A stretch of DNA of 64,000 nt. It comes from Pseudomonadaceae bacterium. GTDB lineage: Bacteria > Pseudomonadota > Gammaproteobacteria > Pseudomonadales > Azotimanducaceae. How positions within the stretch are numbered: the first letter of the stretch is position 1; each line of letters starts with the position of its first letter. The DNA lies in contig JANSXA010000005.1 of NCBI GenBank assembly GCA_024743175.1, positions 310,001 through 374,000 of the forward strand. The letters are read 5' to 3'. Both the position numbers and the translations under genes were made by a program. The notes beneath the pieces are model-generated. The model saw only the letters and a program-made list of their open reading frames with translations, searched no databases and was not told the origin of the DNA. Below, in pieces: positions 17,770 through 19,813 of the stretch.

Positions 17770-18696
17770 TTACAAATGATCATCGAGCAGAGCCTGTTGA
17801 CGGCTACTGAAAATATCCCGGAGAAAACTCACCAGCAACTGCACCCGGCGTGCATTACGTAGCTCGGGGTGGGTCAAAAGCCACAGCGTCGGACTCTTCT
17901 GTACCGGCATCTGAGGCAGCCGCAACAGCTGCTCAGGTTCAGGCCACTGGGCTTGATCCGCACTCAGATAACAAGGCAGCAAACCAACACCCATGTGTAC
18001 ACGGATACAGGTCTGCTGCATGAAGACCTGATCACAGCGAATGCGTACCCGGCTGGATGCAAAATAGCGTTCCCGCAGGCTGGCATAAAAATTCATCACT
18101 TCGCCGCGTGCTGCCCAATCGATCCATGCAAGGTCCCGGTCTTCGCCTGGGGAGCTGTCTGACCCACCGTGCTCAGCAATATATTTGCGGCTGCCATACG
18201 CCGCCACCGCAACCTGATAGAGAGGCCTGCCAACCATTGTGTCCGGCGGAGTTTCTGTTGCCAGAATAGCGACATCAACATCCGCATTAGCAATATCCAG
18301 GTTGCCGTGCACGGGGATGATCTCAAGTTCGATCTCAGCATACTGCTCACAAAACTCAGCCAGGTCAGCCAGGACAAAACTCACCGCCAACACATCCGGC
18401 ACCGCCAGACGGATCTTGCCTTCCAATCGTTGATTAAGTCCCTGAAGCTGAGCATCGAGCTGATTGAGTTGCTCGCCGAGCGCATCAATCTGCTGCGCCA
18501 CATCACTCCCCTCAGCGGTAATCTGTAATCCCGTATTGGTGCGGAGGAACAGCATAACGCCAAGCCGGGACTCCAGCGCTTCCAGACGGCGGGTCACTGT
18601 TGAAGGATTTACCTGCAACTCAATAGCTGCACCACGAACGGAACCCTCATTGGCCACGGCAGCAAAAAAACGGTAATCATCCCAGTTCAAGCCCAC
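17770..18696 (-). CDS. LysR family transcriptional regulator
   Basis: DDYRFFAAVANEGSVRGAAIELQVNPSTVTRRLEALESRLGVMLFLR. Confidence 0.9.
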   Translation of the reverse strand: MGLNWDDYRFFAAVANEGSVRGAAIELQVNPSTVTRRLEALESRLGVMLFLRTNTGLQITAEGSDVAQQIDALGEQLNQLDAQLQGLNQRLEGKIRLAVPDVLAVSFVLADLAEFCEQYAEIELEIIPVHGNLDIANADVDVAILATETPPDTMVGRPLYQVAVAAYGSRKYIAEHGGSDSSPGEDRDLAWIDWAARGEVMNFYASLRERYFASSRVRIRCDQVFMQQTCIRVHMGVGLLPCYLSADQAQWPEPEQLLRLPQMPVQKSPTLWLLTHPELRNARRVQLLVSFLRDIFSSRQQALLDDHL

Positions 18697-18763
18697 TACA
18701 CCTCAAGATATCGGCGATTTCCGAAAATGCGCCGGAAAGCGGAGACTAAATTAGTCGTTGCAT

Positions 18764-18786
18764 TAACGCAACATCATGTTGCGTTA
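18764..18786. promoter_or_regulatory. 23-nt perfect palindrome, candidate operator
   Basis: TAACGCAACAT-C-ATGTTGCGTTA, in the intergenic region between lysR and the enoyl-CoA hydratase. Confidence 0.7.
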
Positions 18787-18793
18787 CTTAGGG

Positions 18794-18821
18794 TTGCATT
18801 TATTGTTACCCAAAGTAACAT
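18794..18821 (+). promoter_or_regulatory. putative promoter (TTGCAT-N16-TAACAT) overlapped by inverted repeat TGTTAC-N5-GTAACA
   Basis: Inverted repeat 18804-18820 seen directly; promoter assignment is weak consensus match. Confidence 0.4.
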
Positions 18822-18827
18822 ACCCCC

Positions 18828-18960
18828 ATCGAACAAAAACAGTTCCGTGAGGGTCATCCGATACCCCCCCTCCCCTCCCCTCCCTCGGATGCCCCTCTTA
18901 TCTTCAAAAAGTAGAAGTGGCTGGAGATCCTTACAAAGATCTCAGCCCTTCTACTTTTTT
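18828..18960 (+). ncRNA. candidate small RNA with C-rich stretch and intrinsic terminator
   Basis: Promoter-like element upstream, C-rich tract CCCCCCCTCCCCTCCCCTCCC, then long hairpin ending in TTTTTTT; no convincing ORF. Confidence 0.4.
18906..18960 (+). terminator. intrinsic terminator-like hairpin
   Basis: AAAAGTAGAAGtGGCTGgAGATC-CTTACAAA-GATCTCAGCCCTTCTACTTTTTTT. Confidence 0.75.
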
Positions 18961-19024
18961 TATGTCTGCAGATCAGCTGATCTGCCGCTGAGCCTGGCAT
19001 CAGAAATGCGCTACCATTGCGCCC

Positions 19025-19813
19025 ATGACTTATCAGCACCTGACCCTGACAAAAAGCAACCACGTCGCCTGGCTCACCTTCAATCGACCTGGCAAAGCCA
19101 ATGCACTGAACTACGAGCACCTGCTCGAAATTGAAACTGCAGTGCTGTCTCTGCGCGATGATCCGCAAACTCGGGTTGTGGTATTCACCGGCGCAGGCAA
19201 ACATTTTTCATCAGGCGCTGACCTGACTGATAGCGGCGATGCTTATAAGGTACCCATGGTGCAACGCCGACGACGGATGCGTATAGGCGAGCGGACTATC
19301 GAAGCCATCCTCGATATGGATCAGATTTCTATTGCAGCCTGGAACGGTGCAGCCATGGGTGGCGGCGCCTGTATTGCCACCGCATGCGACTTCAGGATAG
19401 GTGCAGACAACTGTTTCATGCAGTATCCGGAGGTCGATATCGGATTGAATCTGATGTGGAAAAGCCTGCCACTGATTACCCATCTCGCTGGTCCTTCCCG
19501 TGCCAAACGACTGGTCATTGGTGGAGAGCGCATAGAAGCAGCTGAACTGCTTGACTGGGGTATCCTGGATAAAAAGGTCTCACTGGCTAACCTTTACGAT
19601 GCGGCAGAATCAATGGCGCAGCACTATGCGGCCAAGCCGCCTGTAGCTGCACAAATGATCAAACGTTCGACCAATCAGATCTGCAATGCCCTGAATGGCG
19701 CGTTAATGCATATGGACGCTGATCAGAATCTCCTGGCGGCGAGCACCGACGACCGAGCGGTCGCCGTGCAAGCCTACTTGAATAAGGAAAAGCCTACCTT
19801 CACGGGTTCTTAG
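19025..19813 (+). CDS. enoyl-CoA hydratase/isomerase family protein
   Basis: FNRPGKANALN, FTGAGKHFSSGADL, AAWNGAAMGGGACIATACDFRIG. Confidence 0.9.
   Translation: MTYQHLTLTKSNHVAWLTFNRPGKANALNYEHLLEIETAVLSLRDDPQTRVVVFTGAGKHFSSGADLTDSGDAYKVPMVQRRRRMRIGERTIEAILDMDQISIAAWNGAAMGGGACIATACDFRIGADNCFMQYPEVDIGLNLMWKSLPLITHLAGPSRAKRLVIGGERIEAAELLDWGILDKKVSLANLYDAAESMAQHYAAKPPVAAQMIKRSTNQICNALNGALMHMDADQNLLAASTDDRAVAVQAYLNKEKPTFTGS

Follow-up and report, generated by a model that had tools for sequence, protein, structure and literature searches.

The locus and its elements

The window, by which we mean the whole stretch of 64,000 nucleotides that was analysed, contains two divergent genes: a LysR-type transcriptional regulator gene on the minus strand at 17770..18696 (Pfam HTH_1 and LysR_substrate, both above cut-off), and, on the plus strand at 19025..19813, a gene of the enoyl-CoA hydratase/isomerase family, echA (Pfam ECH_1, E = 2.7e-44). 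The intergenic region between them is the subject of this study. It holds a predicted small RNA of about 134 nucleotides, on the plus strand at 18828..18961, whose start is placed by its distance from the -10 box; echA is a neighbour, and lies outside it.

Along the plus strand, the predicted sRNA promoter comes first (18794..18821), with a -35 box TTGCAT at 18794-18799, a spacer of 16 nucleotides, and a -10 box TAACAT at 18816-18821. A palindrome GTTAC-N5-GTAAC, at 18805-18819, lies within this promoter and overlaps the -10 box. Then comes a hairpin, at 18849..18897, whose arms GAGGGTCATCCGA (18849-18861) and TCGGATGCCCCTC (18885-18897) are complementary in 12 of 13 positions: the stem of 12-13 base pairs closes an apical loop of 23 nucleotides (18862-18884), in which a C-rich run occupies positions 18864-18884. 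After 8 more nucleotides comes an intrinsic terminator (plus strand, 18906..18961): the arms of its stem lie at 18906-18917 and 18948-18959, and its seven T at 18955-18961. A first-pass annotation of this DNA had listed the promoter boxes, the C-rich run, the terminator hairpin with its seven T and the divergent genes, and all are found where it placed them. It had, however, called the C-rich run unstructured, which is wrong: the run is unpaired, but as the apical loop of a hairpin whose stem is conserved.

The predicted transcript, folded as 18829-18962, has a free energy of -49.8 kcal/mol (z = -8.4), and none of 200 shuffled sequences is as stable. A simple promoter and terminator scanner calls neither element at this locus. 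We attribute the miss to the strict consensus that it uses, and take the conservation of both elements, described below, to settle the matter.

Distribution among relatives

At the DNA level, a search of 59 near genomes finds related regions in 15, including the genome of the window itself. The wider search of homologues relied on a covariance model (R1) built for the hairpin. The first-pass annotation had proposed such a search, and the hairpin does turn up: in 30 of the 40 genomes of the genus (18 of the 21 of good quality), and, with E <= 0.05, in 62 of the 207 genomes of the family, representing 12 of its 37 genera, a few of these matches being marginal. Among 392 genomes drawn evenly over the order, matches occur only in the window's own genus. 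The family, Candidatus Azotimanducaceae at NCBI, has Candidatus Azophilus lithoversatilis as a member; the genus includes the record UBA4421, and nearly all other records besides Azophilus are metagenome-assembled genomes.

Five weak matches of the model (L082-L086) have no promoter, and are excluded from all counts of copies and loci. Two of them, L085:1501-1542 and L086:1501-1542, belong to a genome of the same genus, G025, that has no canonical copy: they are near-identical hairpins with C-rich loops, flanked by GCTCC/GGAGC, and may be diverged relatives. Pattern matches in Streptomyces, Saccharopolyspora, Dictyobacter and others were rejected as chance occurrences, their loops having no C-tract. 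Two genomes from other gammaproteobacterial families contain C-rich-loop hairpins (CUUCUCCUUCCCCUCCCCC, at L137:1501-1550 and L139:1501-1544) that share a promoter-like stretch TTGCGTNATCCTGAGNG...TGCTA and match nothing in Rfam; these are possibly a second, separate family of C-loop sRNAs.

A conserved hairpin with a C-rich loop

The 65 homologous copies of the hairpin contain 53 distinct sequences. In their alignment, 97.3% of the stem cells are paired, and compensatory double changes occur at 9 of the 12 stem pairs, in 72 cells; examples of arm pairs that changed together are GAGGGAUAUCCG/CGGAUAUCCCUC, GAGGGAUACCCG/CGGGUAUCCCUC, CGGGGAUUUCCG/CGGAAAUUCCC and GAGAGACAUCCG/CGGAUGUCUCUC. None of 500 shuffles reaches this level of covariation, and all slid registers score much lower. 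Judged by this pattern of substitution, the C-loop hairpin is a conserved RNA structure, and not a chance hairpin.

The loop varies in length from 17 to 25 nucleotides, and its composition is more constrained than its exact sequence or length: loops are 94% pyrimidine and 0.4% G, and the motif CUCCC is present in all 65. In each of the 62 predicted transcripts that were folded, the loop is mostly or fully unpaired, with a mean of 98% of loop positions free. The first-pass annotation had staked its proposal on finding a conserved structure or C-tract in relatives, and both are there.

Promoter, upstream control and terminator

Aligned upstream regions contain the module TTGCA-N-GTTAC-N5-GTAACA(T/A) in 54 of the 56 loci tested. 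The palindrome that it includes, GTTAC-N5-GTAAC, is nearly invariant even at loci without lysR. Further upstream lies a distal palindrome, GTTGCATTAACGCAAC (GTTGC-N6-GCAAC, 18757..18772), that behaves differently: it tracks the adjacent lysR, being present in 38 of the 43 loci where lysR adjoins versus 1 of the 13 where it does not, and is probably the LysR operator. In 40 of the 41 loci that have this palindrome, its centre lies at -63.5 or -64.5 relative to the predicted sRNA start. The element TGTTGCGTTAC, at 18777..18787, is conserved in the same alignments as a second half-site of the upstream control region.

For comparison, the IR1 repeat lies at -65 for gcvA-gcvB and at -66 for oxyR-oxyS (PMC5002191). 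The similar position of the palindrome, at about -64, supports LysR control of the predicted sRNA where lysR adjoins it, and we consider such control probable at those loci. The adjacent LysR-type protein would bind the -64 palindrome, repress its own gene and activate the sRNA, as GcvA does for gcvB. Since the core promoter is also kept where lysR is not adjacent, LysR may not be the sole or universal regulator: at these loci, the promoter must depend on some other factor, or on a lysR located elsewhere.

Predicted transcripts of the relatives are about 80-220 nucleotides long. An intrinsic terminator follows within 160 nucleotides for 47 of the 65 copies, versus 6 expected from shuffled controls, and for the other 18 copies no clear terminator was found. 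The terminator sequences are unrelated between clades, which implies that termination itself is what is kept. Tandem copies of the sRNA exist in three genomes (G017, G021 and G059), and most copies in multi-copy genomes have their own terminator.

Neighbouring genes

When the 56 loci are classified by their upstream neighbour, 43 have a divergent homologous lysR, 11 an alpha/beta-hydrolase gene and 2 a rhamnosidase gene, with some loci assigned by clade resemblance rather than by a family search of each. In the several lineages where an alpha/beta-hydrolase gene stands instead of the divergent lysR (L053, L065, L076, L039-L043 and L045-L047), the distal palindrome is gone in nearly all.

On the other side, about half of the loci have echA downstream on the same strand, less than 400 nucleotides away. 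In at least 15 loci, according to crude ORF calls, the next gene is convergent and echA does not adjoin the sRNA; the products of these convergent neighbours, judged by sequence without a family search, are Rieske-like, transporter-like, kinase-like or tRNA synthetase-like. Many echA-linked relatives have a TANNNT box 6-7 nucleotides 5' of the echA ATG (19012-19027 in the window). In the window this box is TACCAT (plus strand, 19012..19017), a probable -10 box located 3' of the sRNA terminator, and the recurrence of the box suggests that echA is expressed as a leaderless mRNA from its own promoter, after the sRNA has ended.

The sRNA persists, in the genomes compared, when either neighbouring gene is replaced. 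The convergent next gene in at least 15 loci, together with an upstream gene that may be lysR, alpha/beta-hydrolase or rhamnosidase, argues for an sRNA that is independent of its neighbours. As far as sequence can tell, it is an independent transcription unit, intergenic and with its own promoter and intrinsic terminator.

Possible targets

The search for targets by pattern gave no enrichment over the reversed control and no conserved target: in the genome of the window, GGGRGGGGR occurs before an ATG 5 times, versus 5 in the reversed control, and one of the five is the complement of the sRNA locus itself. The best candidate is an acyl-CoA synthetase-like gene with ribosome-binding site GGGAGGGGAAC-ATG. 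Related synthetases often have a G-rich ribosome-binding site, but they are not clear orthologues of the candidate. The genome encodes Hfq.

Interpretation

The comparison of sequences establishes a hairpin with a nearly G-free, C-rich loop that is kept as an RNA structure, with a conserved promoter and, usually, a terminator of its own. We propose that the predicted transcript is an independent, trans-acting sRNA of about 134 nucleotides, activated by LysR through the -64 palindrome, whose C-rich loop blocks G-rich ribosome-binding sites; we give this full reading a probability of roughly two in three. The stem would display the C-rich loop and shield it from degradation, and the CUCCCC/CCUCCC of the loop would pair with the G-rich ribosome-binding sites (GGGGAG, GGGAGG) of several mRNAs, blocking their translation. 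The exclusion of G from the loop and the constancy of CUCCC are consistent with an antisense seed for such sites, and we consider it probable that the sRNA acts by pairing of its loop with G-rich sites, silencing the mRNAs that carry them at the ribosome-binding site. What the first-pass annotation proposed, an undescribed sRNA that has a C-rich seed and ends at an intrinsic terminator, is supported by the comparative data for the predicted transcript.

Conceivably, the partner of the C-rich loop is a protein, or another G-rich RNA for which the loop serves as a sponge: a loop constrained more in composition than in sequence or length would suit such a binding platform no less than it suits an antisense seed. 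Together with the failure to find a conserved target, and with the example of PmaR, whose effects are positive and mostly exerted outside ribosome-binding sites (PMC6234868), this makes for an alternative that is unlikely but deserves mention; a related possibility is that the loop pairs with other parts of mRNAs, the reported behaviour of PmaR. However, the lack of G and the conserved CUCCC are what antisense pairing to G-rich ribosome-binding sites needs, and sX13 and NfeR1, which have related C-rich motifs, pair at the ribosome-binding site; RepG targets a G-repeat.

A terminator 5' of a gene is a trait of attenuators, and with echA downstream on the same strand within 400 nucleotides in about half of the loci, the region could be a cis-acting leader or attenuator of echA. 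We find this very improbable: besides the at least 15 loci whose next gene is convergent, the terminators are unrelated between clades, leaving no conserved anti-terminator, an apparent -10 box for a leaderless echA stands 3' of the terminator, and tandem copies exist. The four G-tracts on the minus strand of the window copy raise the question of a DNA element, such as a G-quadruplex or i-motif, or a cruciform bound by a protein. Four tracts of at least 3 are kept in only 29 of the 65 loops, compensatory changes maintain the pairing of the stem, and promoter and terminator fix one strand and orientation; we reject this explanation, whose chances appear slim indeed, because the four-tract pattern is not conserved. 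Finally, an ORF of 135 codons (18727-19134) crosses the region, and might be read as a short coding gene. The lengths of the hairpins are spread over all three classes modulo 3 (28/23/14), which means that no conserved reading frame passes through the hairpin, and the chance of a coding gene is negligible.

Returning to the trans-acting sRNA, one may speculate on a family-wide switch formed by LysR and the sRNA. A metabolite, perhaps one related to acyl-CoA, would be sensed by a LysR protein that fires the sRNA, whose single C-rich loop would silence a set of mRNAs with G-rich ribosome-binding sites, including genes of acyl-CoA metabolism; the sRNA would have been freed from lysR in some lineages, and would have multiplied in tandem in some. 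We regard this extension as doubtful, but, if true, it would be a switch that has not been described before. Apart from it, a widespread and mostly uncultured gammaproteobacterial family gains a family of regulatory RNAs that is well supported, and with it a clean record of evolution, with operator, neighbour and terminator each changing independently of the RNA.

Comparison with known systems

When the window and eight relative loci are compared with 4227 Rfam families, none scores above its gathering threshold, and the best match at E <= 10 is a chance microRNA (E = 3.2). The literature found under the name of the bacterial family consists of community studies. The sRNA family appears to be undescribed, although its kind, the sRNA with a C-rich loop, is known from sX13, NfeR1, PmaR and RepG: as in that kind, its C-rich motif is unpaired in an apical loop.

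The arrangement of the locus recalls gcvA-gcvB and oxyR-oxyS, in which an sRNA is divergent from a LysR-type gene, with an operator about 65 bp upstream of its start (PMC5002191); here too, an inverted repeat is centred near -65 of the predicted start. Unlike in gcvA-gcvB, the LysR protein scores 78 bits, against a cut-off of 288 for GcvA, and the RNA is unrelated by Rfam.

The sRNA sX13 of Xanthomonas is structured and exposes C-rich motifs in its apical loops; the mRNAs that it represses have G-rich motifs close to their start codon, it pairs with mRNA at the ribosome-binding site, and Hfq is dispensable (PMC3771888). The predicted sRNA is likewise gammaproteobacterial and strongly structured, with a C-rich motif in an apical loop, but sX13 carries short 4C/5C motifs on three stem-loops and is found by polA, whereas we find one long C-rich loop with a terminator, by lysR. 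In NfeR1, of the alpha-r14/cuckoo family, an anti-Shine-Dalgarno C-rich motif in unpaired regions pairs at the ribosome-binding site, and transcription is activated by the LysR-type regulator LsrB (PMC10746234). The unpaired C-rich motif and the link to a LysR-type regulator, here a predicted one, are common to both. The alpha-r14 RNAs are alphaproteobacterial, however, with three hairpins that each carry CCUCCUCCC on variable stems; we rejected membership of that family, since a single C-loop hairpin of the CUCCCCUCCC type, on a conserved stem, and a terminator take the place of the three CCUCCUCCC hairpins.

The most similar shape is that of PmaR, at a different locus: this RNA of Agrobacterium resembles a spoon, with a long stem and a single C-rich, single-stranded loop that engages its targets, and is found only in Agrobacterium and Rhizobium sp. 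IRBG74, where its regulation is mostly positive (PMC6234868). RepG of Helicobacter pylori targets a G repeat in the tlpB leader that is homopolymeric and variable (PMC8295292): it comes from an unrelated locus, and shares with the new sRNA a G-rich aim that is, in our case, a prediction. With the family described here, the C-rich-loop solution of sX13, NfeR1, PmaR and RepG would be met once more, in an apparently unrelated RNA.
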